From a virus, in IMG/VR virus record IMGVR_UViG_3300021596_000077, positions 1-32,129 of that record: a stretch of 32,129 bases of DNA; one strand, written 5' to 3'. Position 1 is the first letter of the stretch, and each line of letters starts with the position of its first letter. A program made the translations under genes and the position numbers. The notes beneath the pieces are model-generated. The model was not told the DNA's origin and did not search any database. It was given only the letters and a program-made list of their open reading frames with translations. Shown in pieces: positions 5,116 to 32,071 of this stretch.

Positions 5116-8084
5116 TCGCGACCGCGAAATGGGTGGCGGTGAAGGTCTTTACCGCCGCCGTCGCCGCCGGCGTTCCGGTAAACACGGCCTTCACCCTGAT
5201 GACCGTGGCCAAGGTCGCGGCGGAGGTGGCGATCACGGCGGGGCTCAACGCCGCCCTGTCCTCGGCCCTGCGGCCCAAGGTCGGCGGCGACTTCGGAACC
5301 CAGATCGACTTCAAGGCCGATCCGCGCGGGCCCATTCCCTACGCCCTGGGGCGGACGGGAACCGCGGGCAACCTCGTCTTCGCCCAGACCGCCGGGGACA
5401 AGAACAAGTACCTGAACTACGTGACCGTCTACTCGGCGGCGGGGCCCATCGACAGTTACGAGGCCTTCCTCGTCAATGGAACGCCGGTCACCTTCGGGAC
5501 GGACGCGGGCGAAGGGGCGAGCGGCTACTACCAGAACCGCATGTGGCGCCGTCAACAGCTGGGCTCGCGACCTGAGGCGAGCTGGCTGCGCTGGACCTCG
5601 ACGGGGAGCAAGGACACCCCCGGCGACCATTCCGGCCTCCCGGCGGAGTGGACCTCGGCGCACAAGCTCTCGGGCCTGGCGGCGGATCTCTGGGGCCTGC
5701 AGTACAACACGACCGTCTATTCCTCGGGCCCGCCCCGGAAACTGGCCGTGGCCAAGTGGGTCAAGGTCTACGATCCGCGGCTGGATTCCACCTATCCCGG
5801 CGGGTCCGGGCCGCAGCGGGCCAATGATGAGTCCACCTGGGCCTGGTCGGACAACCCCTATCTTCACGCCCTGACCTGGGTGATCGGCCGCCAGGCGAAC
5901 GGCGTGCGGATCCTGGGCCTGGGCGCGCCCCTGACGGCCATCGACATGGCCGCCTTCGTCGAGGGCGCGAACGTCGCCGCCGCGAACAACTGGAAGCTGG
6001 GCGGGGTCGTCTATTCGACCGACGACAAGTGGGAAGTGCTGAAGGCCATGCTGCAGGCTGGCGCCGGCCGGCCCATGCGCCTGGGGGCGAAGATCAGCTG
6101 CCTCGTCTCGACGCCCCGGACCTCCCTGGCCACCCTGACCGGGGCCGACGTGGTCGGCGAGGCCCAGATCACGGGGACGCCCTCGAGGCGCAGCCGGATC
6201 AACACGGTCTGGCCGAAGTACCGCGAGGAGGCCCAGGGCTGGGAGATCGTCGCGACCGACGCCCCGATCCAGGTGGCCGCGCACATTACGGCCGACGGCG
6301 GCAAGGTCCGCTCCCGCGAGATCGAGTATCCGCTGGTCCAGTCGCCGGTTCAGGCGGCCCAGCTGGCCCGCTACGACATCGAGAACAGCCGGGAGTTTCA
6401 GCCGGTCGTCCTGCCCTGCAAGCCCGCCTGGATGGGCTACAAGCCCGGCGACTGCATCACGGTCAACGAGCCGGAGTTCGGCCTGGTCAGCCAGAAGATG
6501 CTGATCCTGCGCCGCCAGCGCGATCCGGCGACCCTGGTCACCACCCTGACCCTGGTCTCTGAGACCGACGGCAAGCACGCCTTCGCCCTGGGCTCGAGCC
6601 TGTCGCCGCCGGCGACGCCGGGCCTGAGCGGCTACGATCCGAACCAGTCGACCGTGGTGGCGGCGGGCTCCTGGACGGCGACGGGCACGGCCCTGACCGG
6701 CCCTGACGGCTCGACCCAGCCGGCGATCGTCTTCGCCGGCGAGGTCGAGGACCCGAACGTCACGCGGGTCATCGCCGAGACGCGCCTCAGCCTCGGCGGC
6801 GGAAACTTCGGCGACTGGATGAGTTCCGAACATTCGCCGCAGATCCGGCGGATCGAGGTGCGGGGCCTCCTGCCCTCCAGCGACTATCACTGCCGCATCC
6901 GCTACCGCACGGCCCTGCAGGCCGAGGGGCTGACGGGCCTGGACCTGGGGATCAAGACGACGGGCGCCCTGAGCGTGCCCGGCGCCATCACCGACATCAA
7001 CGGCCTGACCCCGCAGGAGCTGACCAGCCAGCTGGCCTATGTGGTCGAGCAGGGCCGCCAGCTGAACCAGGCCGTGCTGGAGAGCTTCAACCGCCTGGTG
7101 GACGAGCGGGGCCTGACCTACCAGGCGACCCTTCACAACGGCCAGCCGGTCAAGAAGATCCTGATCGACGAGAATACCAGCTGGACCGACGGCGACGTCT
7201 CGGTGATCGGCCAGCTGAACCTGCTGGGCCAGGTGACGGACGGCGGGTCGGCCTTCATCCTGAACGAGACCGCCGTCAAGGTCAGCGCAACGGAGACCCT
7301 GGCCGAGTACCGCACCGGCGTGGCCGCCGCCCAGGCGGCGAACAGCGCGGCGATCTCTTCCGAGATTTCGGCCCGGGCCAGCGGCGACAGCGCCCTGGCC
7401 TCCAGCCTGTCGAGCCTTTCGACGACGGTCGGCGGGAACACCGCCTCGATCACCACCCTGCAGAGCTCGGTGAACGGGATCTCGGCGGAGTGGGTGCTGG
7501 CCCTGAACGCCAACGGCCAAGTGGCCGGGATCAAGGCGGCGGTCGGGCCGACGGTTTCGACCCTGGCCTTCCAGGCCGACCAGATCGCCTTCTCGAACGG
7601 GGCGGTGAACGTCTTCCCCCTGACGATTGTCGGCGGGGAGGTCCGGGCGACCAACTTCCGGGTGGACCGGGTCACGGCCAATTCCATCGAGACCGAGAGC
7701 CTGAGGGGCGGGGCGGTGACCACCCAGGTCTCGGCCTCGACCAACCCGATCACGCCCATCGGCACGACGCCCGTGCAGGTGATCAGCCTGAGTATCACCA
7801 CGATCGGCGGCCCGGTGCAGGTGGGCTACGACTGCCAGGTCGGCCTGAACGCCAGCTTCGCCGGCGGCCTGCGGGCCAATGTCTACCGGAACGGGACCCT
7901 GCTGCGGTCGGCCGCCCGGTCGAACATGAGGGGCCCCTTCCAGGACGGCCTGGGCGGCCTCCTGCGCGACACGCCCGGGGCCGGAACCCACACCTACACG
8001 ATCGAGCTGGACATCCCCGGGGTCACGCCCGGGACCCTGACCTCGAACGTCAACGAGATCATGCTGACGGAGCTGAAGAAGTGA
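5100..8084 (+). CDS. Central tail hub / host specificity (J-like) protein
   Basis: This is the largest gene, 994 residues. Start GTG 5100 is chosen because a GGAGGG ribosome site lies just upstream (5087-5092) and earlier codons fall inside the previous gene. The N-terminus is hydrophobic (residues 1-60). A middle region, about residues 280-510, looks like a phage tail-3/hub domain, with YKPGDCITVNEPEFGLVSQK. A fibronectin-like part follows at about 520-620. The C-terminal part has the J-type pattern ISSEISARASGDSALASSLS, a helical stalk with TTVGGNTASITTLQSSVNG, and a DUF1983-like WVLALNANGQVAGI. It probably forms the tail tip hub and carries host-range determinants. Confidence 0.82.
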   Translation: MAAAVVATAKWVAVKVFTAAVAAGVPVNTAFTLMTVAKVAAEVAITAGLNAALSSALRPKVGGDFGTQIDFKADPRGPIPYALGRTGTAGNLVFAQTAGDKNKYLNYVTVYSAAGPIDSYEAFLVNGTPVTFGTDAGEGASGYYQNRMWRRQQLGSRPEASWLRWTSTGSKDTPGDHSGLPAEWTSAHKLSGLAADLWGLQYNTTVYSSGPPRKLAVAKWVKVYDPRLDSTYPGGSGPQRANDESTWAWSDNPYLHALTWVIGRQANGVRILGLGAPLTAIDMAAFVEGANVAAANNWKLGGVVYSTDDKWEVLKAMLQAGAGRPMRLGAKISCLVSTPRTSLATLTGADVVGEAQITGTPSRRSRINTVWPKYREEAQGWEIVATDAPIQVAAHITADGGKVRSREIEYPLVQSPVQAAQLARYDIENSREFQPVVLPCKPAWMGYKPGDCITVNEPEFGLVSQKMLILRRQRDPATLVTTLTLVSETDGKHAFALGSSLSPPATPGLSGYDPNQSTVVAAGSWTATGTALTGPDGSTQPAIVFAGEVEDPNVTRVIAETRLSLGGGNFGDWMSSEHSPQIRRIEVRGLLPSSDYHCRIRYRTALQAEGLTGLDLGIKTTGALSVPGAITDINGLTPQELTSQLAYVVEQGRQLNQAVLESFNRLVDERGLTYQATLHNGQPVKKILIDENTSWTDGDVSVIGQLNLLGQVTDGGSAFILNETAVKVSATETLAEYRTGVAAAQAANSAAISSEISARASGDSALASSLSSLSTTVGGNTASITTLQSSVNGISAEWVLALNANGQVAGIKAAVGPTVSTLAFQADQIAFSNGAVNVFPLTIVGGEVRATNFRVDRVTANSIETESLRGGAVTTQVSASTNPITPIGTTPVQVISLSITTIGGPVQVGYDCQVGLNASFAGGLRANVYRNGTLLRSAARSNMRGPFQDGLGGLLRDTPGAGTHTYTIELDIPGVTPGTLTSNVNEIMLTELKK

Positions 8085-20664: not shown

Positions 20665-21593
20665 GCCGCGTCCGTCTCAGCGGCCCGCAGGCGTTCCATT
20701 TCCGACTTCAGCCCAAGGGCGTCGGTCGGCGACAGCGCCCAGAACTCTTGAAGCCCGGCACGGTTGACGCTTTCAAACCAAGCCTTCTGGCGCGCGTCCA
20801 GCGACCCATAAGCCGCCAGCGCCCGGTCGGCGACCTGTCCAACCGGCACTTGCTCCAAGGGCTCAACCGGGTGGAATTGGAAGGTGATGGTGCGACCGCC
20901 CGCGCCGATCCGGTCAAGGCGCTGTTGCGTGGCGTCGGCGTCGATAAGGTCGGTGGGCAGGACCGCCTCGGTTAGCTGCTGCCGGTCCACCTCCGAAGCC
21001 TCGTAAAGACCGGACAGGTCTTCTGGAAAAGCGCGGCGGATGGCGATGGCCTCCGCGCACTTCGCCAGCATGAGGCGCGGCATCTTGGCCCATTGAGACT
21101 TGGGGTCGAGATACTGGCGACCGCTCGGCTTGCGCTTGCCTGTCCGCTCGTCATCGACCCATTCGTCTGCGACCGGGGCGAACTCACTCCAGTAGGCCAC
21201 ACCAACGACCGGGTGCCATTCGTTCCCGCTCTGGTCCCGGATGTAGACCCGGACCATCACGCGATCGATGCCAAGGGGATTGGTCGGCCCCTTCAATTCC
21301 GCGTCGTAGGTGAAGGACGGCTCCTGATCGTCGGGGCGATACCGCAACGACCGACCGGCAATAGAGCGAAGCCCGTCTATTGTGGTGATAATTGCCATGC
21401 GGCGCTTTTCGGCATTGCCCTTGCTGAAAACGATGGCGCTGATTTGCCTGCGGAACGGGTCAAGCCCAGCCCGGCGGGCGGCGGCAACAAACAGGTTGAA
21501 CTCTTCCGAAGAGCAGTCGCGCGCCACGGTGTTCCGCATCAACTCAAGCTGGCGGGGGGCGTAGTCAGCGGTCAGGGGGGTGACGTTCAGCAT
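20661..21593 (-). CDS. bet: Bet/RecT-family single-strand annealing protein
   Basis: The 310-residue protein begins [20 protein letters not shown]. It shows family features: [40 protein letters not shown] and [20 protein letters not shown], followed by [15 protein letters not shown]. These are diagnostic of phage Bet/RecT proteins, which anneal complementary single strands in recombination and replication. The C-terminal 100 residues are variable. The neighbouring gene on the left is the pentapeptide gene (ATGA overlap) and on the right a Gp157-like protein. No exonuclease partner is recognisable nearby. Confidence 0.88.
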
Positions 21594-22411
21594 CAGTTAA
21601 TCCTCATGGTCAGGGTAGGGGCGGCGTTGCTCAGAGAGACGCCAGGGACAGGCTCACCGGCCTTCAAGGCTTCGGCGACGCCGCGCTTGTTCAAGCGGGG
21701 TGGTGGGGCTTCCCAGAAGCGGGACGGGATGGCGCTTTCGTCCATCACGATCAGGCGGGGCGCGCGGTTCGACAGAGACAGGGTCGCCGCCGGGCGCTCG
21801 ACTTTCTTCAGGTCCGCAATGGTCAGGGCCTGTTCCAGCAGGGCGCGGGCGCGCTCGGCGCGCTGGGCAAAGCGATCCGCCCTGGCGTTCATGGCCGCAG
21901 CCGCCGCGCGGGCGGCGAGCCAAGGTGTTTTGAAGAGGCGCTTCCAGGCGTTCAGGGGGATGAAGAACACCTCTTCGGTCTTGTGTCGTCCGCCCCAGCC
22001 AATCACGTTCGCCCTGGCTTCCCTTGGAAAGGGTCGTATGTGAGGCCGGGGCGGCAGCGCCTTGAGTGCGTCGCGCAGGGCCTCGACGGGCCCCAGCGTG
22101 TCAAGCGCGAGTTCGGCTTCCTCCGTCTTCACGGCGGGGCCGCTGGCCTCCCGCGCCGCAAGGAGATCAAGAGCGCGCTTCTCGCCCCAGTCGGCCCCTG
22201 CATAGAATGCGTTTTCGAACGGGACGGTCGGCCCGACGGTGTCGCGCCATTGAAGATAGGCCTCCCGCCTGGGGTCGGGCGGGGTCCAGCCCTCATTCAT
22301 CACCTCGACGATTTTCTCGGCGAGGGTCCAGTTGCGGCCGGTGTTGTCAAAATCCAGCTTCCCGCGACGCTGCGCCTCGGCCTCGATCTCTTGCCAGGTC
22401 GGTTGCCCCAT
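21593..22411 (-). CDS. Early protein with a Gp157-like C-terminal part
   Basis: The 272-residue protein starts at ATG 22411 (overlapping the previous gene's stop); the longer upstream frame is the shadow of that gene. The C-terminal ~90 residues resemble siphovirus Gp157: RLIVMDESAIPSRFW, NKRGVAEALKAGEPVPG and a final LTMRIN. The N-terminal ~110 residues (WQEIEAEAQRRGKLDFDN, VPFENAFYAGADWGEKRALD) are different from the usual Gp157 coiled coil and unrecognised. Gp157-type genes are found beside recombination genes, as here. A fusion of an unrelated N-terminal domain is inferred. Confidence 0.6.
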   Translation of the reverse strand: MGQPTWQEIEAEAQRRGKLDFDNTGRNWTLAEKIVEVMNEGWTPPDPRREAYLQWRDTVGPTVPFENAFYAGADWGEKRALDLLAAREASGPAVKTEEAELALDTLGPVEALRDALKALPPRPHIRPFPREARANVIGWGGRHKTEEVFFIPLNAWKRLFKTPWLAARAAAAAMNARADRFAQRAERARALLEQALTIADLKKVERPAATLSLSNRAPRLIVMDESAIPSRFWEAPPPRLNKRGVAEALKAGEPVPGVSLSNAAPTLTMRIN

Positions 22412-22656
22412 CACCCCGCCCTCCGCATGATGTCGGCCTCGCGGCGCACGGCGCGGGCCTCGGCGCGCAGCTGGCGGATCCGGAGGCGCAGGGCCGGCAT
22501 CTGGGCCTGCAGGCGGGCGAGGGCCAGCTCGGCGATCTCGGCGGCGGCGGGCGTGGTCCAGCTGGCGCCCAGGGCGCGGCGGACGGTCTCGACCTCGGCG
22601 GTCAGGGTCTCGACCGCTCGGCGGGTTTCCAGGGGAATGGGGACGGTGATCATCAT
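22411..22656 (-). CDS. Small helical early protein, unknown
   Basis: This 81-residue protein starts at one of two ATGs, 22656 or 22653. It is strongly helical and rich in Ala, Arg and Glu (LTAEVETVRRALGASW, ALRLRIRQLRAEARAVRREA), suggesting a coiled coil. It overlaps both neighbours by one or a few bases. No domain is recognised. It belongs to the leftward early operon. Confidence 0.6.
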   Translation of the reverse strand: MMITVPIPLETRRAVETLTAEVETVRRALGASWTTPAAAEIAELALARLQAQMPALRLRIRQLRAEARAVRREADIMRRAG

Positions 22657-22814
22657 TCGGCCTCTCCGGCAAGAATGGCGGCGAGCCGGGCGAGCATGGT
22701 GCGTTCGCGCGCCGCCTTTAGTTCGTCAAAAATGTGATCCAGGCTGAGGCCCCGTTCCTGCGCGATGAGGATCAGGGCATCAAGTTCATCGGCAAGTGCT
22801 GACTTCAAGCTCAT
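22653..22814 (-). CDS. Very small early protein, unknown
   Basis: This 53-residue protein starts at ATG 22814 (ATGA overlap with the gene before it) and ends at TGA 22655-22653. It is helical: MSLKSALADELDALILIAQE then DHIFDELKAARERTMLARLA. Longer frames starting further upstream are shadows of the 113-residue gene. Its size and coupling suggest a real small gene; function unknown. Confidence 0.55.
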   Translation of the reverse strand: MSLKSALADELDALILIAQERGLSLDHIFDELKAARERTMLARLAAILAGEAE

Positions 22815-23152
22815 GCGGCTTCCTTCCGGGTGAGGCCCAGGCGCAGGGCGTCCAGGGCGGTGTTGATTTCGGTGACGGTCAGGCCGAAGGCGACCAGGGC
22901 CAGGGGGACGGCCTCGCGCTCGCCCTCGACGCGGCCGATCAGGGCGGCGGCGCAGCCGGGCGATTCCACGGCCGCGAGGCCCGAGGGCAGGCGGCCCAGC
23001 CGATGGCACAGGGCCGCGACCGCCCGGTTCGGGCTGACGGCGTAATAGGTGAGCCAGCGCTCGGGCGCGGCCAGGGCCTTGCCCTCCACGCCGGGGGCGT
23101 AGGGGGTGAGGCCGACGGCGACGTCGCGGCGGTTGTGGGGCGCGGCGGTCAT
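22811..23152 (-). CDS. Early protein, unknown
   Basis: The 113-residue protein begins MTAAPHNRRDVAVGLTPYAP and ends with a helical LTVTEINTALDALRLGLTRK. It has two cysteines and no known motif. It overlaps both neighbours by four bases, so translation is probably coupled through the operon. Not recognised. Confidence 0.58.
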   Translation of the reverse strand: MTAAPHNRRDVAVGLTPYAPGVEGKALAAPERWLTYYAVSPNRAVAALCHRLGRLPSGLAAVESPGCAAALIGRVEGEREAVPLALVAFGLTVTEINTALDALRLGLTRKEAA

Positions 23153-23349
23153 ACGGCGCGCGCCTTGCGCCCCAGGCGCCAGCCCATGCCTTGGCGCTCA
23201 TGCCCGACCGCCCGGGCTATTTCGGCCGGCTCGCGGTCAAAGAGGTCCGCCACCAGGTAGACGCTGATGACGTACCCGTCCTGTTCGCTGCCAAGGTCGT
23301 CGTCTTCATTGTTGGCGATCCAGTCGACCGCGGCTCTCAGGGATGGCAT
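23149..23349 (-). CDS. Small early protein, unknown
   Basis: This 66-residue protein begins MPSLRAAVDWIANNEDDDLG, continues with VISVYLVADLFDREPAEIAR and ends in a basic tail GMGWRLGRKARAV. The middle part hints at a short DNA-binding fold, but this is not shown. It overlaps the following gene by four bases. The 31 bases between it and the promoter-proximal gene contain no feature seen. Confidence 0.6.
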   Translation of the reverse strand: MPSLRAAVDWIANNEDDDLGSEQDGYVISVYLVADLFDREPAEIARAVGHERQGMGWRLGRKARAV

Positions 23350-23380
23350 TGCACAGTCTCCAGGTTGATGAGGCGGGCGG

Positions 23381-23695
23381 TCACAGGCCGGCCGCCAGGG
23401 CGAGCAGGACCGCCGTCAGGCCGAGGCCGACGATCAGGACGTCGTGCATCGTGGTGACGGGGCGGGCGGCCTCGGGCTGGGGTTCCGCTTGCGGAGGGCT
23501 GGGAGCGTCGGCGACAGCTTGGGGGGGAGGGGTCCAGCCCTCCCGGATCAGCATGGCCTGGAACTCGGCCTCCATCTGCTCGGGGCTGTCGTAGTCGAAG
23601 GTCTCGCCGCGGTGCATCAGCACCACGCGGGGGAGGGTCTCCGGTGCGCGCTCGGCGGCGCGGGCGGGGAATTGCAGGACTTGGGCGGTGTTCAT
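23381..23695 (-). CDS. First gene of leftward early operon, C-terminal membrane segment
   Basis: The 104-residue protein starts at ATG 23695 with TGGAGG six to eleven bases upstream. It begins MNTAQVLQFPARAAERAPET and carries GETFDYDSPEQMEAEFQAML, a proline-rich linker, and a membrane segment at the C-terminus (VLIVGLGLTAVLLALAAGL). That makes it a likely tail-anchored inner-membrane protein. Being first after the repressor-controlled promoter it should be made very early. Function unknown; an effect on the host envelope or on superinfection can only be guessed. Confidence 0.62.
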   Translation of the reverse strand: MNTAQVLQFPARAAERAPETLPRVVLMHRGETFDYDSPEQMEAEFQAMLIREGWTPPPQAVADAPSPPQAEPQPEAARPVTTMHDVLIVGLGLTAVLLALAAGL

Positions 23696-23734
23696 CTGGG
23701 CCTCCAGGCGGCGCGGGTGCGTCTTCGGAGGCGA

Positions 23735-23763
23735 ATAACCGCATAAAAGCGGCGCACATGCAA
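23735..23763 (-). promoter_or_regulatory. Probable leftward early promoter
   Basis: On the minus strand a TTGCAT (-35, 23763-23758) is followed, 17 bases on, by GGTTAT (-10, 23740-23735). The first early gene starts 40 bases downstream at 23695. Two copies of the operator palindrome (23765-23776 and 23740-23751) flank or overlap these elements. The -10 is weak, so the exact position is tentative, but the combination with the operators supports it. Confidence 0.5.
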
Positions 23764-23776
23764 GCGCATTAATGCG
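23740..23776. promoter_or_regulatory. Pair of repressor operators in the leftward early promoter
   Basis: The perfect 12-base palindrome CGCATTAATGCG (23765-23776) and an imperfect copy CGCATAAAAGCG (23740-23751) have centres 25 bases apart. The same perfect palindrome is present between the repressor and Cro-like genes. A shared binding site for the phage repressor and Cro-like protein is the simplest reading. Confidence 0.65.
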
Positions 23777-23833
23777 ACTAGGCGGGGCCGCGGGTCTCAG
23801 GCAGCATCCACTTCCGCGCAAGGGGAGAGTGTG

Positions 23834-24466
23834 ATGGTCGTCCTTTACGGTATCGTGGCCTTGTTTTTCGTCGCGCTGATCGTGATCGTGCTGAACGCGT
23901 CGCCGAAGTCTCAGATGGCGCGCCCGGCGGCGGCAGGCCGCGCAAGTCCGACCCGCACGGACCCGCCAGAGGAAGACGACGACAACGACTTCGACGACGA
24001 CGTGATGGAGTACGAGCCGCCGCCCGGCGTCACCCGACCGGAAGGGGATTGGGAGGTCTTCCGGAACGACCAGGACATTGTCGGCGAGCGGTACCGGATG
24101 GAGAATTCGGTCGCCTTCCTTCGTGAGATTCGTGAGGCGATCCAGCGGGCGGTCGCCGTTGAAGCGCCGGAGATGAAGTTCTTCGGGGTCCGCCTGCGCC
24201 GCGAGCCGGACAATCCGCACGACCCTCAGGCCGTGGCCGTGGACGGGTTCTGGCTGAAGGACCCGAAGGACCAGGCGTCAGCCGCTCACCTGCACCTGGG
24301 CTATCTGCCGGCGAATGTGGCGGGCCTGATCGCGGCGCGGCTGGGTCCGGACGCGGAGCTGGGTGCGGAGCTGGTGGGGATCGAGATCGACCCGGACGAC
24401 GATGACGACCCGGTCAACGTCACGATTCACGTGCTGAACCGCCCGGGAGCCAACAAGCGGGGCTAG
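23834..24466 (+). CDS. Membrane-anchored HIRAN-domain protein
   Basis: The 210-residue protein starts at ATG 23834, with AGGGGAGA upstream; GTG 23831 is also possible. Residues 2-20 are a membrane segment (VVLYGIVALFFVALIVIVLN). A linker follows, with an acidic run (EEDDDNDFDDD) at about 47-57. Residues ~82-200 form a HIRAN domain: IVGERYRMENSVAFLREI, then RREPDNPHDPQAVAVDGFW and LGYLPANVAGLIAARLGP. HIRAN domains bind single-stranded 3' DNA ends. Anchoring one to the membrane is unusual. The gene lies convergent to the repressor and alone on its strand, like an accessory lysogeny gene. A role in exclusion or defence is speculative. Confidence 0.72.
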   Translation: MVVLYGIVALFFVALIVIVLNASPKSQMARPAAAGRASPTRTDPPEEDDDNDFDDDVMEYEPPPGVTRPEGDWEVFRNDQDIVGERYRMENSVAFLREIREAIQRAVAVEAPEMKFFGVRLRREPDNPHDPQAVAVDGFWLKDPKDQASAAHLHLGYLPANVAGLIAARLGPDAELGAELVGIEIDPDDDDDPVNVTIHVLNRPGANKRG

Positions 24467-25134
24467 CGGCGGCGGTAGCTGCCCAGCACGAGGCCCTTGA
24501 TCTCGACGATCGTGTCGTCTTCCTCGCCGTTCTCGGCAAGCCGGATCGGCTCGCTCCAGCGGGGATTGTTGGAGCGGGGCCAGAATTCCGGCCCGCGCGG
24601 CGTCATCTGGATTTCCTTGACCGTGCGCTCCACCAGCCCGCCGCCCCGGCGTGTCCGCTCGATGATGACGTGGTCGCCGGAGCGGGGCGCGTAGCCGATC
24701 TCCGTCGCATCGACCACGTGGAGAAGGGACCCCACCGGATAGTCGCGGTCCATGGAGTCCGTCACCACGCGCTCCAGCCATTGGGGGAAGGCGGCGTAGG
24801 CCGGTTCCGGCAGGACGGGCGCCGTGCCCAGGGCGTGGTCGAGGTCTTCGACGGCGCGCCAGATTCCAGCCCCGACTTCGTAGCGGATCGGCAGGTGAAA
24901 CATGGCCAGCTGGGTCGGCTCGACGGCCTCGCCCAGTGACGGTGGCGGGACGTTGATCGCCGCCGCCAGAGCCGACAGCGTGCGGGTGCTGGGGACGAAG
25001 GGGTAGTCCGGCGCCATGACCCTCTGCACCGTGGAGGGCGCAAGCCCGGCCAGCTTCGCCCAGGCGGCGAAGCTCAGGTCGTGGGCCTCGGCGTTCTCGC
25101 GGATCCAGCGGCGAATGATGTCGAGATGCGTCAT
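24463..25134 (-). CDS. Phage repressor, HTH plus S24 peptidase (CI/LexA-like)
   Basis: The 223-residue protein starts at ATG 25134; upstream extension would run into the Cro-like gene. Residues ~20-60 are a helix-turn-helix (FAAWAKLAGLAPSTVQRVMA). Residues 85-185 are an S24 self-cleavage domain: A89-G90 cleavage site in EVGAGIWRAVED, Ser127 in TDSMDRDYPVG and Lys173 in LVERTVKEI. RecA-stimulated autocleavage would induce the phage. Its start codon is three bases from an operator copy (25138-25149) and no Shine-Dalgarno is seen, so it may be autoregulated with a leaderless or very short-leader mRNA. Its stop codon shares CTAG with the convergent HIRAN gene. Confidence 0.88.
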   Translation of the reverse strand: MTHLDIIRRWIRENAEAHDLSFAAWAKLAGLAPSTVQRVMAPDYPFVPSTRTLSALAAAINVPPPSLGEAVEPTQLAMFHLPIRYEVGAGIWRAVEDLDHALGTAPVLPEPAYAAFPQWLERVVTDSMDRDYPVGSLLHVVDATEIGYAPRSGDHVIIERTRRGGGLVERTVKEIQMTPRGPEFWPRSNNPRWSEPIRLAENGEEDDTIVEIKGLVLGSYRRR

Positions 25135-25137
25135 TGC

Positions 25138-25206
25138 CGCATCTATGCGCGTCCCGCATTTCGAGGCGAGACGTATGAAAGCGGTTGCGTGCGGCGCATT
25201 AATGCG
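25138..25206. promoter_or_regulatory. Repressor/Cro operator region with three sites
   Basis: CGCATCTATGCG (25138-25149) and CGCATTAATGCG (25195-25206) fit CGCAT-NN-ATGCG exactly, and CGTATGAAAGCG (25172-25183) is a weaker version. They lie in the 87-base gap between the divergent repressor and Cro-like genes, where an O1-O3 arrangement is expected. No clear -35/-10 pair was identified for either direction. Confidence 0.68.
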
Positions 25207-25221
25207 GCACTCAGTCGAATC

Positions 25222-25512
25222 ATGTCGAACCTGATCCAGACCTTCTCGGCCCGCTGCGACGCCGTCGGCGTCAAGCCGGTCGAGGTTCTTCGTCGGGCCG
25301 GTCTTCACGGATCGGTCTGGTGGCGCTGGCGCAGCGGGGCGGTGTCGCCGACCCTGCGGAGCTTCGAAGCGGCCGAGCGCGTCCTGGGAGAAATCGAGGC
25401 GCATGGGGCGGAACAGCTCCGTTCGGATGAGCCGCCAGAAGGCGGCGAGGCCCCAGCCTCACCCGATCCGGCCGCCCAGATCACCCGGAATTCCGAGGAG
25501 GTTTTCCGGTGA
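25222..25512 (+). CDS. Cro-like helix-turn-helix protein
   Basis: The 96-residue protein starts at ATG 25222, divergent from the repressor; starts further upstream would pass through the operators and the repressor gene. The N-terminal 55 residues form an HTH (FSARCDAVGVKPVEVLRRAG, then WWRWRSGAVSPTLRSFEAAE). The C-terminal part is acidic and proline-rich, and unlikely to be structured. It heads the rightward early operon and overlaps the next gene at GTGA, so it is the natural candidate for Cro. Confidence 0.72.
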   Translation: MSNLIQTFSARCDAVGVKPVEVLRRAGLHGSVWWRWRSGAVSPTLRSFEAAERVLGEIEAHGAEQLRSDEPPEGGEAPASPDPAAQITRNSEEVFR

Positions 25513-25928
25513 ACCGGCGCGCTCACGCCCTGGCCGCGCGCCGCCTGATCGCCGCCTGCGGGGGGTTGATCGAGGCCGCCGCCGCCTGCCGGGTCGGCAA
25601 GACGCAGCTGGCCGACTACCAGTCCGCCGAGGGCCTGGGCTTCATGCCCGCCGACGTGATGGCCGACCTGGAGGCCTACTGCGGCGCGCCGATCTATTCC
25701 CGGATGCTGGTGGAGGCGCGGCCCGCCGGGCCCGACACCCGGGACCTGGCCCGGGAGGCCTGCGACGCCGCCGAGGCGGGCGGTCGCCTGCAGCACGCCG
25801 CCCGCCGGGCCTCTGACGACGGCGCGATCAGCGAGCGCGAGCGGCGCGAGCTGGTCGACATCTACGCCGAGGCCCTGGATCAACTGCGCCAGGTCGGCGC
25901 GCTTCTGTCGGAGAAGGTGACGCCATGA
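25509..25928 (+). CDS. CII/CP76-like phage regulatory protein
   Basis: The 139-residue protein starts at GTG 25509 (GTGA overlap). LIAACGGLIEAAAACRVGKT resembles a helix-turn-helix, followed by LADYQSAEGLGFMPADVMAD and LEAYCGAPIYSRMLVEA, the pattern of CP76-type regulators of phage Mu/P2-like and alphaproteobacterial prophages. The C-terminal half is helical. The position directly after the Cro-like gene matches lambda cII. Function by homology pattern only. Confidence 0.6.
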   Translation: MNRRAHALAARRLIAACGGLIEAAAACRVGKTQLADYQSAEGLGFMPADVMADLEAYCGAPIYSRMLVEARPAGPDTRDLAREACDAAEAGGRLQHAARRASDDGAISERERRELVDIYAEALDQLRQVGALLSEKVTP

Positions 25929-26365
25929 CCGGGACCATCAAGGGGGTCCGCGCGACAGCGGTCTTTCTCGACGAGCAGAGCAGCCGGCCTGCCGACCGCA
26001 TCGGCGAGCGCCGGTCGCGGCACGAGGATCGGGCGGCCTGGCTGGCGGCCCTGGGCGATGCGCGGCATGTGGCGTGGGCGCGGATCACCGACGGGGAGGT
26101 TCACCGGGACGTGCTGGCGATCTTCGCCGGCCGGGTCGTCAAGCTGTCGCGTCACCCGTTTCCCGTCGAGTGGGCGAGCGCTCAGGCGAATGCCGCGGCC
26201 TTCCTGACCCTGGCCAAGGGGTTTGTCACCGTCACCCGGCCCGACCTGGCGAAGGTGCTGGCGCGGTCGGTCCTGAGTCTGGCGACGGGCTGCGGCGAGC
26301 TGCTGGACATCGAGGCTGCCGAGATCGCCGAGCGCGACCGGCTGCGGCAGGGGGGCGGGGCGTGA
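25925..26365 (+). CDS. Early rightward protein, unknown
   Basis: The 146-residue protein overlaps its left neighbour at ATGA. It contains VAWARITDGEVHRDVLAIFA and a helical C-terminal half (ARSVLSLATGCGELLDIEAA). No domain is recognised. It is tightly coupled to the next gene by GTGA. It is expected to be an early gene of the replication/regulation operon. Confidence 0.6.
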   Translation: MTGTIKGVRATAVFLDEQSSRPADRIGERRSRHEDRAAWLAALGDARHVAWARITDGEVHRDVLAIFAGRVVKLSRHPFPVEWASAQANAAAFLTLAKGFVTVTRPDLAKVLARSVLSLATGCGELLDIEAAEIAERDRLRQGGGA

Positions 26366-27069
26366 GCCTGCGGCCCGATCCCGCCGCCTTCGTGAAGCCG
26401 GCCGACCTCTGGGCCCGGGCGATCCTCGCCGCGGCCCGGGCGTATGGGGATGATCCGGTCGAGGCCCTGGCCGGGACGGCTCAGCGGCGCTGCCTGCAGG
26501 CGGCCTGTCTGGGGATTGTGCAGGCGACCGGCCTGTCCATCGGCGAGGTGGCGACCCGGCTGGGCCTTCAGCCCTCTGCCGTGCGCCGGATGAAGACGGA
26601 AGGGAATCGCGAGTTCAAGGCCGCCTGGAGGGCCGCCGACTATGCCTGCTGGCGCCCGGAGGCGGCGGAGAGCGTCGTCCAGGCCGCCGGCGAGATGGAC
26701 CGGGTCGGGGAGGCCGGGGTCGAGGTGATCGCGCCTGAGGCCGCGCCCCTTTCCGAGCCTGAACCCAAGCCGGCGCATCTGGCCCGGCCGCATGCGCCCC
26801 TGGCGGGGCGGGTGAACCTGGCCAACGGACACGCCTTCACCCCGGCCTTCCGGCCCGGCCCGCCGCCGCCGACCCAGTCGCTGGAGGCGCGCATCCTGGC
26901 CCGGCTGGGGCAGGCCCCGACCTGCCCGCGCAGCCTGGCCTCGATCCTGGGCGTGAAGGAGAGCTTCGTCGACCAGACCCTGAGGGTGCTGGGGCTGGAG
27001 GGCCGGGTGATCGCCGGCGAGACGCCGCCGGGGGCCAGCCCCCGCGAGACGGCCTGGAGCCTGGCGTGA
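26362..27069 (+). CDS. Putative DNA-binding regulator, HTH plus winged helix
   Basis: The 235-residue protein starts at GTG 26362 (GTGA overlap); the longer frame upstream is a shadow. An HTH-like segment is at about residues 50-75 (TGLSIGEVATRLGLQPSAVR). A proline-rich linker is at about 125-175, and a C-terminal winged-helix-like region contains ILARLGQAPTCPRSLASILG and VKESFVDQTLRVLGLEGRVI. These suggest DNA binding in regulation or replication initiation. The family is not known to me. Confidence 0.55.
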   Translation: MSLRPDPAAFVKPADLWARAILAAARAYGDDPVEALAGTAQRRCLQAACLGIVQATGLSIGEVATRLGLQPSAVRRMKTEGNREFKAAWRAADYACWRPEAAESVVQAAGEMDRVGEAGVEVIAPEAAPLSEPEPKPAHLARPHAPLAGRVNLANGHAFTPAFRPGPPPPTQSLEARILARLGQAPTCPRSLASILGVKESFVDQTLRVLGLEGRVIAGETPPGASPRETAWSLA

Positions 27070-27596
27070 TGGCGGGCGGGAACTACACGACCGACGAAGA
27101 CCGGGCCATCACCGACGCCGTGCGCGCCGGGGCGCGGCGGGATCGGGATTTCCGCGAGGTCGCCCTGCGCCTGGGCCGTTCGGCCGAGGCCGTGCGGGAG
27201 CGGGCGTTGCGGCTGGGGCTGATCGAGCGGGCGGCGCGGGCCGGGGCGCCCGCCCGGCCCTGGTCCGACTCCGAAATCAGCTTTCTTCTGAAGGCCCGGT
27301 CCCGGAAGACGCCTCAGCGCGAGATCGCGAAGATCCTGCAGCGAACGGTCAACTCGGTCGGGAAGCAGCTGGCGATCCTGGAGGGCAGGGTGGTGCTGCG
27401 CCCGCCGGCCCGGGAGTACGCCGTGGAGCGGGAGCAGCATCGGGAGGCTCAGGCCCGGGCCTGCGAGCGCCACGCCGCCGCCTGTCTGGCGGCCGGGGGG
27501 TTCTGGGCCTTCTCCGAGCGGCGGCTGGGGCGCGACCAGGTCGCCGTCTGCCTGCCCCTGATCCCGCCCGTGCAGATGCGGGGGGCGCCGCGATGA
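27066..27596 (+). CDS. Protein with two SANT/Myb-like units
   Basis: The 176-residue protein starts at GTG 27066 or ATG 27069. Two similar helical units are seen: YTTDEDRAITDAVRAGARRD to ALRLGL (about residues 7-55), and WSDSEISFLLKARSRKTPQR to KQLAIL (about 66-105). Each has a tryptophan or tyrosine start and a REIAKIL/REVALRL helix, like Myb/SANT or sigma-like HTH units. The C-terminal part is helical. A DNA-binding role is likely but not shown. Confidence 0.58.
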   Translation: MMAGGNYTTDEDRAITDAVRAGARRDRDFREVALRLGRSAEAVRERALRLGLIERAARAGAPARPWSDSEISFLLKARSRKTPQREIAKILQRTVNSVGKQLAILEGRVVLRPPAREYAVEREQHREAQARACERHAAACLAAGGFWAFSERRLGRDQVAVCLPLIPPVQMRGAPR

Positions 27597-27892
27597 GCCA
27601 GGTGGCGCGCGGGACCCAGTTCGGCCGGCACAGTCTGGCGGACCGGAAGAACGACCTTTACGAGACGCCGCCCTGCGCGACGCGGGCGCTGATCCCGTTT
27701 CTGGACCCTGCCGAGGCGATCTGGGAGCCGGCCTGCGGGCCGGGGGCGATCGTGCGCGAGCTGCGCGACGCGGGGTTCGTGGTCTATCCCACCGACCTGG
27801 TGGACTACGGGCCGGACGGGGTCGGGATCGGCGGGATCGACTTCCTGATGGAGCGACCGACCTGGCGCCGGCCCTCGGTCATCGTCACCGCT
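27593..27892 (+). pseudogene. Truncated SAM-dependent methyltransferase
   Basis: The reading frame begins MSQVARGTQFGRHSLADRKN and shows the typical start of a phage methyltransferase: DLYETPPCATRALIPFLDP, the SAM motif IWEPACGPGAIVRELRDAGF and YPTDLVDYG. Where the catalytic NPPF/NPPY motif is expected, after PSVIVT, the sequence changes to AGGG and becomes unrelated. The rest of the enzyme is missing. The frame stays open all the way to 29215 through the primase, but a small gene (27903-28070) with a strong ribosome site is read in another frame. A deletion that left the frame open is inferred. Confidence 0.65.
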
Positions 27893-27902
27893 GGAGGGGG
27901 GC

Positions 27903-28070
27903 ATGAGGAGGCTGATCTCCGGCGCGTGGATCATGACGGCCGAGGGCTGGGTGTCCCTGGGCCAATCCCCCCAGGTCGTCTTTCAGTCGGATGCCTACGG
28001 GCAGACCGGGCCGATCGATTTCCACACCTGGCTTCACCGACACGACGATTTCGACGGGGAGCCGGAATGA
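27903..28070 (+). CDS. Small protein upstream of primase
   Basis: This 55-residue protein begins MRRLISGAWIMTAEGWVSLG after a strong GGAGGGGGG ribosome site (27891-27900) and ends WLHRHDDFDGEPE. It lies in a different frame from the methyltransferase remnant and overlaps the primase start at ATGA, so it probably couples primase translation. No domain is recognised. Confidence 0.55.
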   Translation: MRRLISGAWIMTAEGWVSLGQSPQVVFQSDAYGQTGPIDFHTWLHRHDDFDGEPE

Positions 28071-29215
28071 CCCCGACCGCCGACGACCTCTTCGCCCGGG
28101 CCCGGGCGGTCTCGATCGAGGCCGTGGCGGGTGTGCCCCTGTTTCGCGCCGGTCGCCGGATGCGGGGAGGCTGCCCGATCTGCGGGGCCAGCGCGGGCAA
28201 GAAGGCCGACGGGGCGTTCAGCGTCGATCCCGAGGCCGGCTTGTTCCACTGTTTCGCCTGCCAGCGCGGGGGCGACGTGGTCGAGCTGGAGAAGGCCCTG
28301 GGCGGCGGTTCCGCCCGCCAGGCGGCGGAGCGGCTGGCGGGGGCGGGCGTCGCCGGGATTTCGGCGGCGCGGGCCCTGAAGGCGTTGTCGATCCGGTCGT
28401 CGGCTGAGCGGCCTGCGCCGCCGGACCGCCCCGGCCTGGACCTCGAGATCTGGCGCTCGGCCCGGGCGGCGGTGCAGGGATCGCCCGCGGCGGTCTATCT
28501 GGAGGGGCGGGGGATCGACCCGCGCCTGATCGCGGGAATCCCGGGCTATGTCCGGTTCGCCGAGGCGGCGACCTGGGGCTGGGGCGAGGGCGGCGAGAAG
28601 ATCACCGCGCCGGCCATGGTGGCCCGGCCGGTCACGCCCTCGGGGCCAGTGCCCGGGTGTCACGTCACCTACCTGGCGCCCGGCGGGCATGGGAAGGCGC
28701 GGCTGACTCCGGCCAAGAAGATGTGGGGCCGCCAGGCGGACGCCGAGGGCCGGCCGGGGGCCGTCTGGCTGACCGATCCGGAGGCCGAAGGGCCCCTGCT
28801 GGTCGCCGAGGGGATCGAGAGCGCGCTTTCCGCCGCCCAGCTGCTGGGCCAGCCCTGCCGGATCGTGGCGACCCTGAGCCTCTCGCGCCTGCAGGGCGGA
28901 ATGCTGACAGACAAGTGGGGGCGGATCAGCCCGGCGGCCGTGGCGGCCGACCCGGAGCGGCCGCCCTGGACCTGGCCCGAGCCGGGCGAGGTGATCCTGG
29001 CCGTCGATCGCGACATGGGCGCGATACGGGCGAAGGTTCGGAAGACGGGCGGGGGCACGGCCGAGCGCCTGCTGACCGCCGAGGACCGGGCGCGGATCTG
29101 CGCCGGCCTTGCCAAACAGGCCTGGAAAAGGGCCGGCGCGACGAAGGTCCGGGTGATCGCACCCGGCCCGGGCCGCGACTTCAACGATGAATTAAGGGCG
29201 AGACAGGATGGCTGA
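28067..29215 (+). CDS. Phage primase, zinc finger plus Toprim
   Basis: The 382-residue protein starts at ATG 28067 with GGGGAG five bases upstream. An N-terminal CHC2-type zinc finger has Cys36/Cys39 in GGCPICGAS and Cys62/Cys65 in FHCFACQRGGDVVELE. The C-terminal part is a Toprim domain: E248 in LLVAEGIESALSAAQ and D314-x-D316 in EVILAVDRDMGAI. The end GRDFNDEL is a common primase terminus. It would make RNA primers for phage replication. In DNA it is continuous with the upstream methyltransferase remnant, but its own start is well supported. The helicase gene overlaps by eight bases. Confidence 0.85.
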   Translation: MTPTADDLFARARAVSIEAVAGVPLFRAGRRMRGGCPICGASAGKKADGAFSVDPEAGLFHCFACQRGGDVVELEKALGGGSARQAAERLAGAGVAGISAARALKALSIRSSAERPAPPDRPGLDLEIWRSARAAVQGSPAAVYLEGRGIDPRLIAGIPGYVRFAEAATWGWGEGGEKITAPAMVARPVTPSGPVPGCHVTYLAPGGHGKARLTPAKKMWGRQADAEGRPGAVWLTDPEAEGPLLVAEGIESALSAAQLLGQPCRIVATLSLSRLQGGMLTDKWGRISPAAVAADPERPPWTWPEPGEVILAVDRDMGAIRAKVRKTGGGTAERLLTAEDRARICAGLAKQAWKRAGATKVRVIAPGPGRDFNDELRARQDG

Positions 29216-30347
29216 CGGGTCTGGGTACGAGTTCGGCGACGCGCCGGGGCCGGAGGAGCTGGCTGCGTTCGAGCTGAACGACATTGGGAACGCGAAGCGG
29301 CTGATCCGGATGGTCGGGGGCCAGTTCGACGCCCTGGGGGACGTGGACCTGGGCGGGGCGATCCTGCTGTACCAGCGCGAGGTCGGCTGGGTCGGCTGGA
29401 ACGGCAAGACCTGGGATCTGAAGCTGGGCCAGCGCCTGGCGGAGCGGACGGCGCACCGGGTGGTGCACGAGCTGGTGGGCCAGCGGATCCACATGGAGGA
29501 CCGGGGCCACGACAAGAAGGCCGTGACCGCCTTCGTCCGCGAATCCGGGAACGCCGGGCGCATCTCGTCCATGCTGAAGGTGGCCGAGGCCTATCTGCAG
29601 GTGGACCTGGAGGTGTTCGACACCGCTGAGCTGGCCCTGACCGTGCGGAACGGGACGCTGCGATTCGCGCGCATGGCCGGCGGCGGGATGACCCAGACCT
29701 TCGACCCGCACGATCCCCGGGACCGGATCACCCGGATGGCGGAGGTGGAGTTCGACGCCAAGGCCCGGGCGCCGCTCTGGGAGGCGAGCCTGGCCCGATG
29801 GCAGCCGGACCCGGAGATGCGGGAGTACCTGCAGCGGGCCGTCGGCTACATGGCGACGGGGTTCACGCACGAGCAGGCCTTCTGGATCTTTCAGGGCAAG
29901 GGCCGGGACGGCAAGTCGACCATGGTCGGGGCCCTGCGCGAGCTCTTGGGCGGATACGCCGACGTGGCGGACGTGCGGACCTTCCTGGACGTCTCGCAAC
30001 GCGGCGGGGCGGACGCCTCGCCTGACCTGGCGCGCCTGGCGGGCGACTGCCGGATGATCTCGGTCGCCGAGCCGCCCCGGGGGGCCAAGCTGGCTGAGGC
30101 CATGATCAAGAGCTTTACCGGCGGCGCGCCGATCCTGGCCCGCCGGCTGCGGCAGGACCTGTTCAGCTTCATGCCCCGGCCGAAGGTCTTCATGGAGTGC
30201 AACAGCCGGCCGGTCATCAAGGGCGACGATGAAGGGATCTGGCGACGGATCCACCTGGTGATGTTCGAGCACCAGGTCGCCCCCGGCGAGGTCGACCGCG
30301 AGCTGGGGCGCAAGCTGAGGGCTGAGTATCCGGGGACCAGCGCGTGA
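29208..30347 (+). CDS. D5-type SF3 helicase, main part
   Basis: The 379-residue protein has an N-terminal D5_N-like region (FDALGDVDLGGAILLYQREV) and an SF3 ATPase with Walker A at residues 230-238 (FQGKGRDGKSTM, K236). Sensor and later motifs follow: RMISVAEPPRGAKLAEAMIK and FMECNSRPVIKGDDEGIWRR. Family members unwind DNA at phage replication. The normal C-terminal continuation after AEYPG is missing; the frame stops after GTSA. The remaining helicase end is in the next frame (30344-30706), starting in a GTGA overlap. Confidence 0.8.
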   Translation: MADGSGYEFGDAPGPEELAAFELNDIGNAKRLIRMVGGQFDALGDVDLGGAILLYQREVGWVGWNGKTWDLKLGQRLAERTAHRVVHELVGQRIHMEDRGHDKKAVTAFVRESGNAGRISSMLKVAEAYLQVDLEVFDTAELALTVRNGTLRFARMAGGGMTQTFDPHDPRDRITRMAEVEFDAKARAPLWEASLARWQPDPEMREYLQRAVGYMATGFTHEQAFWIFQGKGRDGKSTMVGALRELLGGYADVADVRTFLDVSQRGGADASPDLARLAGDCRMISVAEPPRGAKLAEAMIKSFTGGAPILARRLRQDLFSFMPRPKVFMECNSRPVIKGDDEGIWRRIHLVMFEHQVAPGEVDRELGRKLRAEYPGTSA

Positions 30348-30706
30348 AGGACGCCCTGGAAGACTATCGCAAGGGGTCCAGTCCCTTCGGCGAGTGGTTC
30401 GCAGAGCGCCTGGTCCTCGAGCCCGGGGCCAAGACGGTCGCTGCCGACCTCTTCGCCGACTTCAAGGAGTGGTGCGAGGGCCAGGGCATCGAGCGGATCA
30501 TGAGCCAGACGGCCTTTGGCAACGCCCTGGCGGACCGGCAGGTGATCCGGGCGGGGATGAACGGCTCGGGCAAGGTGATGCGCTCCGGCGCGCGCCTGAA
30601 GACCTCCGCTGAGCTGGCCGCCGATCGGGGCGTGTTCAGCCCCGGCGGGTCATCGGCCAGCCCCTTCGATCCTGATCTGTCGGCCTACGGATATCAGGGG
30701 GACTGA
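30344..30706 (+). CDS. D5-type helicase, separate C-terminal part
   Basis: The 120-residue protein starts at GTG 30344, overlapping the helicase stop. It begins VKDALEDYRKGSSPFGEWFA and continues with LVLEPGAKTVAADLFADFKE, a pattern normally at the C-terminus of D5-type helicases (winged-helix end). About 20-25 residues of usual linker are missing between the two parts, and the frame differs. The GTGA coupling could let both parts be made together and associate. Otherwise it marks a broken helicase. Confidence 0.65.
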   Translation: MKDALEDYRKGSSPFGEWFAERLVLEPGAKTVAADLFADFKEWCEGQGIERIMSQTAFGNALADRQVIRAGMNGSGKVMRSGARLKTSAELAADRGVFSPGGSSASPFDPDLSAYGYQGD

Positions 30707-30718
30707 GGGCGATGATCT

Positions 30719-30941
30719 ACAGACAGTTACAGACAGTACAGACAGTCCGCCGTGCTGAGAGCCCCCCGGCGGGCCGGCGGGCAGACGGTCAACTGTCTGT
30801 GGGGCTGGCGACTGTCTGTCCGAAAAGCGGCGAGAATTCCGAGGCTTACAGACAGTACAGACAGTGCAGACAGTTGCCGCCGGATGAGCCGTTAGCGAGG
30901 GCGCACCACGTGGGCCCTATGCCTGCGGGGTCAGTGTCTGT
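30719..30941. repeat. Iteron-like array of ACAGACAGT, candidate origin
   Basis: ACAGACAGT occurs at 30719-30727, 30729-30737, 30738-30746, 30848-30856 and 30857-30865, with GCAGACAGT at 30866-30874. The inverse ACTGTCTGT is at 30792-30800 and 30811-30819, and AGTGTCTGT at 30933-30941. GCAGACGGT (30781-30789) is a weak copy. The grouping (three direct, two inverted, three direct) lies right after the primase/helicase genes and before the NusG-like gene. Phage replication origins often have such iterons; regulatory operators are the alternative. An open frame crosses this stretch but the repeats would make it low-complexity, and better starts lie downstream. Confidence 0.7.
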
Positions 30942-30960
30942 TCTTTTGATGGGGGATGGG

Positions 30961-31524
30961 ATGGATCAAACAAACAGTAATCTCTCTTCCTCTTCTGAAA
31001 GGAAGGTCTGGGTCGTGGTCGCCTGCCGGCAGGCCCAGGAGGTCCGGGCCCGGGTGGAGCTGGAGCGGCAGGGGTTCGAGGTCTACCTGCCGATGCGCCT
31101 GGTCTCGATCCGCCGCCCCGGCCGCCAGGCCAACGGCGCGCGGGACCTGCTGGCCCGGCCCTTCCTGCCCGGGTACCTGTTCTGCCGCGTGGGCCTCGCC
31201 CTGGGCGACTGGCGGCGCATCTGGTCCACCTTCGGGGTCAAGGGCCTGCTGGGCTCGGAAGAGCGCCCGGCGGCCGTCCGGGACTGGGTGGTGGACCGCA
31301 TCCGCGACCAGGAAGAGGGCGGGTTCATCAAGCTGGGCCTGGAGGCCGACCGTCCCGCCTTCGACCGTGGCGCCCGCGTCCAGCTGGCCGGCCTCGACCA
31401 GGTCGAGGGGATGTTTCTGGAACAAATTGACGAAAGGCGGGCCTCGATCCTAGTCTCGCTGCTAGGACGCGATTCGCGCGTCACCGTTGACCTGGCGAAG
31501 CTCCGGTCGGCGGGTGCGAAGTGA
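30961..31524 (+). CDS. NusG/RfaH-like transcription elongation factor
   Basis: The 187-residue protein starts at ATG 30961, with GGGGGATGGG upstream; ATG 30949 is possible. The longer frame from 30712 crosses the iterons and is rejected. It has an NGN domain (WVVVACRQAQEVRARVELER and RPFLPGYLFCRVGLALGDW) and a KOW-like C-terminal part (FDRGARVQLAGLDQVEGMFL, then DSRVTVDLAKLRS). Paralogues such as RfaH bind RNA polymerase and prevent termination in specific operons. The strong terminator between it and the HNH/packaging genes suggests a phage late antiterminator. It does not look like the host's general NusG. Confidence 0.78.
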   Translation: MDQTNSNLSSSSERKVWVVVACRQAQEVRARVELERQGFEVYLPMRLVSIRRPGRQANGARDLLARPFLPGYLFCRVGLALGDWRRIWSTFGVKGLLGSEERPAAVRDWVVDRIRDQEEGGFIKLGLEADRPAFDRGARVQLAGLDQVEGMFLEQIDERRASILVSLLGRDSRVTVDLAKLRSAGAK

Positions 31525-31708: not shown

Positions 31709-32071
31709 ATGGGACGCCTGAAGCAACTGAAGCCCACGGTCGGAAGCCTGGCCCCCCGGCTGGGCCGCATGACCGACGAGCATGGCCACTCCCGCGCGCT
31801 GGAGCCCTGGCGCAAATGGTACAGCCTCGCCGCCTGGTCCCGCCTGCGCGTCGAGGTCCTGGTCCGGGATGGCTTCGAGTGCCAGGCCTGCCACCACATC
31901 GACCCGACCGGCCGCCAGCTGGTCGCCGACCATATCCAGCCGCACCGCGGCGACCCCGCCCGCTTCTGGGCGCCGTCCAACATCCAGACCCTCTGCAAAC
32001 CCTGCCACGACGGCGCGAAGCAGCGCGAGGAGCGGGCAGGCTGGCAGGGCAGGGGGGCCTCGAAACTCTGA
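31709..32071 (+). CDS. HNH endonuclease
   Basis: The 120-residue protein has GAGGTGAG upstream of ATG 31709. It begins MGRLKQLKPTVGSLAPRLGR, then shows a zinc-binding pair C58-x2-C61 (FECQACHH), D74-H75 in LVADHIQPH, N91 in SNIQTLC and C96-x2-C99-H100 (CKPCHDG), which together are the HNH motif set. Such enzymes sit directly before the small terminase in many siphoviruses and help cut or package the genome. The gene has its own leader after the terminator and probably opens the late packaging operon. Confidence 0.85.
   Translation: MGRLKQLKPTVGSLAPRLGRMTDEHGHSRALEPWRKWYSLAAWSRLRVEVLVRDGFECQACHHIDPTGRQLVADHIQPHRGDPARFWAPSNIQTLCKPCHDGAKQREERAGWQGRGASKL

Follow-up and report, generated by a model that had tools for sequence, protein, structure and literature searches.

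An array of nine-base iterons in the window, the 32,129-base virus record analyzed here, is most likely the replication origin of this phage or a cis-required element of that origin, of the same kind as P4 crr and bound by the helicase encoded immediately upstream. The first-pass annotation offered either a replication origin or a regulator's binding array. The origin is favored and the regulator's array less so because the repeats lie 3' of an SF3 helicase gene, have a geometry like that of P4 crr, adjoin an AT-rich segment, and covary with the DNA-binding domain of the helicase. The accessible literature contains no description of the array as an origin.

The array fills the gap between the helicase gene, which ends at 30706, and a NusG-like gene that starts at about 30961, and its components are as follows:

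30719-30727, 30729-30737 and 30738-30746, plus strand: first direct triplet of 9-bp iterons, all exact ACAGACAGT
30792-30800 and 30811-30819, minus strand: inverted pair, exact ACAGACAGT, 19 bp apart
30848-30874, plus strand: second direct triplet (starts 30848, 30857 and 30866), with 9-bp spacing
30933-30941, minus strand: terminal inverted copy, ACAGACACT, one mismatch

Direct copies are spaced by 10 and 9 bp in the first triplet and by 9 and 9 bp in the second, which begins 37 bp past the last copy of the inverted pair and consists of exact ACAGACAGT at 30848 and 30857 and GCAGACAGT at 30866. A tenth match with one mismatch, ACAAACAGT, lies at 30970, inside the start of the next gene. With up to one mismatch allowed, the window contains 10 motif matches, all within 30719-30978; shuffled sequences give a mean of 2.15 and a maximum of 6, and none of 100 shuffles reaches 10. 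In the 480 bases examined past the helicase gene, the top 8-mer has seven occurrences, a count that never exceeds three in shuffles. The six direct and three inverted ACAGACAGT-type copies initially annotated at 30719-30941 are thus confirmed, each being located individually and the set exceeding shuffle expectation, and the array coordinates given for them are right. A mechanical open reading frame crosses the array in the NusG frame, which says little because the repeat holds no stop in that frame. The place of the first triplet and its 10/9 spacing recur in loci L004 and L005, and the same triplet is found in two viral contigs.

The genes around the array, and the helicase features discussed below, are:

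27593-29215, plus strand: DnaG-type primase as a separate gene (CHC2 zinc finger, DUF7146; Pfam/PHROGs)
29208-30347, plus strand: D5_N/SF3 AAA+ helicase, N-terminal part (Pfam/PHROGs)
30344-30706, plus strand: D5/SF3 helicase, C-terminal part with RFX/P4-like winged helix (Pfam/PHROGs, model and fold match)
about 30377-30607, plus strand: predicted winged helix at the helicase C-terminus (model and fold match)
30509-30511, plus strand: covarying residue T56 of the recognition helix (covariation)
30557-30559, plus strand: covarying residue M72 of the wing (covariation)
30961-31524, plus strand: NusG-like antiterminator gene (Pfam/PHROGs)
31709-32071: HNH endonuclease (Pfam/PHROGs)

These Pfam and PHROGs calls bear out the original placement of the array after the primase and helicase genes, with the SF3/D5 helicase gene standing directly upstream. 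The helicase matches Pfam D5_N, DUF5906 and Pox_D5, the PHROG DNA primase/helicase, and PDB entry 7ola. Relative to L004, the helicase gene of the window has a 58-bp frameshifting deletion at 30336, and its two open reading frames (29208-30347 and 30344-30706) overlap as GTGA; in L004, L005 and L007 both parts form one protein of 519–521 residues. The deletion may represent an assembly error, a defective phage or a split protein, and its presence counts against the origin reading. The NusG-like gene opens the packaging module; about a quarter of the relatives retain it, and the rest have unrelated genes in that position.

Searches with the helicase alignment yielded some 75 loci, at each of which the helicase is present by construction of the search. 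Most of them have an array immediately past the helicase stop codon; about 65 helicase relatives carry one similar to that of the window, and these mostly beat all or nearly all control windows from the same locus. Across these approximately 65 loci the geometry of the array is conserved while its letters vary. Most direct copies follow one another at 9 or 10 bp, the two members of the inverted pair are separated by 18–19 bp in many relatives, and 39 of 65 loci have a step of 35–39 bp, most commonly 37 bp, between the last inverted copy and the direct set that follows. A terminal inverted copy is present at about +200 to +300 in many relatives. The repeat itself may read ACAGACAGT, ACGGACAGT, NYGAACAGT, ACAGACCAT, ACGGCGGGT or others, including AC[AG]GACAGT, AC[AG]GACGAT, ACGGAGGAT, ACGGACATT and ACGGCAGGT. 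L007 and L008 have the same architecture as the window with GAACAGT as the repeat, a motif also present in L018, L020 and L066, and the repeat of L010 is ACAGACGAT or ACAGACCTT. A limitation of the motif table is its manual curation from computed words.

The rule is not universal, since six loci (L031, L060, L065, L082, L089 and L114) show no clear array. Streptomyces phage Samy and Arthrobacter phage Cyan likewise have none after their D5 helicase genes, and Lactobacillus phage CL2 and Pseudanabaena phage Pan4 carry other arrays in the same place. In Rhizobium phage RR1-A (L117), GGACAGC repeats do not directly follow the helicase gene but occupy a gap some 1.8 kb beyond it, at 5705-6104. Host genomes added little, since one search of genome contigs with the helicase alignment gave the single locus L035. 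In the phages collection neither NusG nor, at the DNA level, the array region has a match.

The array is very probably recognized by the phage's own helicase. An AlphaFold2 model of the helicase C-terminus built with 52 sequences has a mean pLDDT of 74.6, with values of 79–90 over the folded part, and the best structural matches of its winged helix are RFX5, the RFX1-DNA complex 1DP7 (Z 9.2), and the P4 origin-binding domain 1KA8 (Z 8.4). RFX1 contacts DNA mainly via its wing. The HTH proteins encoded at 25509-27596, put forward by the first-pass annotation as binders, are not favored; the likely reader is this C-terminal winged helix.

Comparison of array letters with helicase residues points to the same domain. 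Of 474 helicase columns, the one ranked first for motif position 4 (G or A) is a single wing residue, corresponding to residue 475 of L016 (in the frame counted from the upstream stop) and to M72 of the window reading frame 30344-30706. Every K or M at this residue occurs with G, and R occurs with A in 10 of 13 instances; the exceptions, with R opposite G, are L064, L098 and L112, divergent loci in which the motif register is uncertain. L016, for example, pairs a wing M with ACAGACAGT, and L018 a wing R with GAACAGT. On a tree of the helicase core without the winged-helix domain, with seven divergent loci of uncertain motif register, these three among them, left out, position 4 and the wing residue switch together in six of six independent pairs (sign test p 0.031). 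Without these seven loci the association has a phi of 1.0 and is the strongest of 1728 residue tests, and a count of raw words that uses no motif alignment gives the same split of G and A between K or M and R. For motif position 8, the top column of 474 is the residue at the start of the recognition helix (T or K; T56 in the window), where T occurs with G in 38 of 38 instances and K with A in 11 of 14, with only two independent switches. This half of the code is weak, since several columns of the core helicase correlate as well as T459. There is a roughly even chance that the wing residue sets iteron position 4 (R specifying A, and K or M specifying G) and that the first recognition-helix residues set position 8 (T specifying G, and K specifying A). 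P4 alpha cannot be placed on the wing code because the wing alignment is ambiguous, with K or R at that residue.

Checks for an AT-rich unwinding element and for a GC-skew signature were proposed with the original annotation of the array. The former yields a candidate whose position is conserved in most relatives:

30961-31000, no strand: candidate unwinding element, with the highest AT content of any 40-mer in the window (65% AT; mean 30%)

The 40-mer with maximum AT lies in the 3' gap, defined as the 430 bases beginning at the helicase stop, in 51 of 65 loci, where about 6% is expected by chance, and the AT maxima of the relatives are mostly located at +250 to +300 past the helicase stop. 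In the window the candidate element overlaps the 5' end of the NusG-like gene, which is otherwise outside the proposed origin; the AT-rich start of that gene codes for a variable, Ser/Asn-rich N-terminus. As the next gene also starts there, the element may serve both ends, and its AT richness may be no more than a sign of an intergenic start region. The stretch between the direct triplets is not AT-rich, positions 30741-30800 being only 17–23% AT, a point against the origin reading and a departure from PICI origins. Positive GC skew climbs over the replication module (window positions 21000-31000) and falls to about zero right after the array, a break also present in G001 and G004. The skew thus breaks near the array, but with a polarity that is wrong for a classical origin, and for this reason skew is not used as support. 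A DnaA-type origin is rejected because no DnaA-box-like site lies near the array: between 28027 and the window end there is no match to TTWTNCACA with up to one mismatch.

Origins of the kind represented by P4 crr, the SaPI and PICI elements and Cch2 are already known. An origin-like element lies next to the primase gene of Streptococcus phage Sfi21. The window resembles P4 in having an SF3 helicase with a C-terminal winged helix, with 1KA8 among the top fold matches, and an array immediately 3' of the helicase gene. P4 crr likewise combines direct and inverted repeats of 8–10 bp, with steps of 18, 43 and 9 bp against about 19, 37 and 9 bp in the window, and when its steps are read along alpha the orientation order is the same. 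The P4 record annotates crr as cis-required for replication, beside the alpha gene, with type 1 repeats, and the winged helix of P4 alpha binds repeats at its origin (PMC4234260). The P4 repeat is GGTGAACAGT-like and shares a core with the GAACAGT of L018, L020 and L066; however, the P4 type I repeat GGTGAACAG(A/T) is absent from the window, whose motif is ACAGACAGT, and the GAACAGT core occurs only in relatives. Other differences are that the primase of P4 is fused to the helicase, whereas that of the window is the separate gene at 27593-29215; that P4 crr carries a 120-bp duplication; and that the iterons of P4 form a further cluster (ori) at a distance of some 4.7 kb, whereas the window has a single array. 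A second motif cluster is not found in five phage records (the window and four relatives), which may be incomplete, and a second origin elsewhere as in P4 is rejected on this basis.

In SaPI and PICI elements the iterons lie immediately 3' of the initiator helicase gene and are recognized by the C-terminal domain of its product (PMC6092414, PMC7581432), and a PICI pri-ori plasmid needs both the initiator gene and the iteron origin (PMC6092414). A 2018 paper described this layout as confined to PICIs among the bacterial replicons then known (PMC6092414). The window iterons are likewise immediately 3' of the helicase gene, as with SaPI/PICI Rep (Pri-Rep). However, these elements are satellites and the window element is a tailed phage, and in PICI origins two iteron sets flank the AT-rich region, whereas the AT maximum of the window lies outside the array, after the last inverted copy. 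The C-terminal domains of SaPI Rep and SCCmec Cch2 both bind iterons downstream of their own genes (PMC7581432). Cch2 is similar in that it belongs to the D5 family of helicases and that its C-terminal domain, in isolation, binds the repeats that follow its gene (PMC7581432); it differs in its three short AAGTG iterons and in its partner, an A-family polymerase-primase. Lambda-type O-protein iterons and plasmid RepA/DnaA-box origins share with the window clustered iterons, which in the window would likewise be bound by an initiator; unlike them, the window lacks a DnaA-box-like site near the array, has its iterons outside the putative initiator gene, and has a putative initiator that is itself the helicase. 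The spread among tailed phages, the fixed spacing and the residue-to-base covariation appear to be new relative to the accessible literature.

The array could instead serve the neighboring NusG-like protein, and the late genes that follow, as an operator or antitermination site. A NusG-like gene does start within about 300 bp of the helicase stop in the window and in some 17 relatives, and there is some excess of transcript structure (z -2.2). This explanation is nonetheless very unlikely. By profile search, just 17 of the 64 relatives with an array have a NusG-like gene next, and none is detectable in the flank of the other 47; unrelated genes occupy its place in the inspected loci that lack it. 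Because the NusG-like gene is missing from most array loci, the array goes with the helicase, and NusG is rejected as the cognate protein. Moreover, the NusG proteins of the window and L007 are 81% identical, yet their arrays are ACAGACAGT and GAACAGT, respectively. An RNA element is also rejected, given the lack of an Rfam match, the modest folding z-score, the presence of the motif on both strands and the near-helical spacing. A recurrent small protein (RKLIGLA.., GADGLRMRYSRA..), possibly DNA-binding, replaces NusG in L085, L086, L099, L105 and L110, at about +200 to +875 after the helicase stop.

Somewhat less improbable, though still unlikely, is that the array is no origin but an operator used by the helicase, or by some other DNA-binding protein of the phage, to repress transcription or set its timing. 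The array does sit where the replication module gives way to the packaging module, next to an AT-rich start region, and the covariation indicates the probable reader of the array rather than its purpose. However, homologous helicases with the same gene-array layout in SaPI, PICI and P4 replicate through it (PMC6092414; P4 record), and a scan of the array region restricted to sigma-70-like promoters finds none. Neutral tandem-repeat expansion or a functionless selfish repeat has a negligible probability: slippage can create 9-bp tandem repeats, but it does not produce inverted copies, a fixed spacing across very divergent phages, or covariation with a DNA-binding domain.

For the favored origin, we infer the steps of binding, melting, loading and replication. 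The helicase from the gene just upstream would bind the 9-bp iterons via its C-terminal RFX/P4-like winged helix, with the wing reading iteron position 4 and the recognition helix probably reading the 3' half of the repeat. Iterons on both strands would allow helicase assemblies to be loaded in both orientations. The loaded helicase would then melt the AT-rich stretch at about 30961-31000 and unwind DNA for the separate DnaG-type primase; a DnaA-like loader is apparently unneeded.

Dozens of tailed phages are thus seen to share the iteron layout, and their spacing resembles that of P4 crr. The independent, repeated switches of array letter and wing residue provide a recognition code, open to direct test, for viral initiator helicases of a large class, and allow the origins of these helicases to be sought by sequence alone. 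If the code is true, origin sequence and cross-compatibility would be predictable from protein sequence, and related phages would recurrently become incompatible in replication by switching origin specificity.
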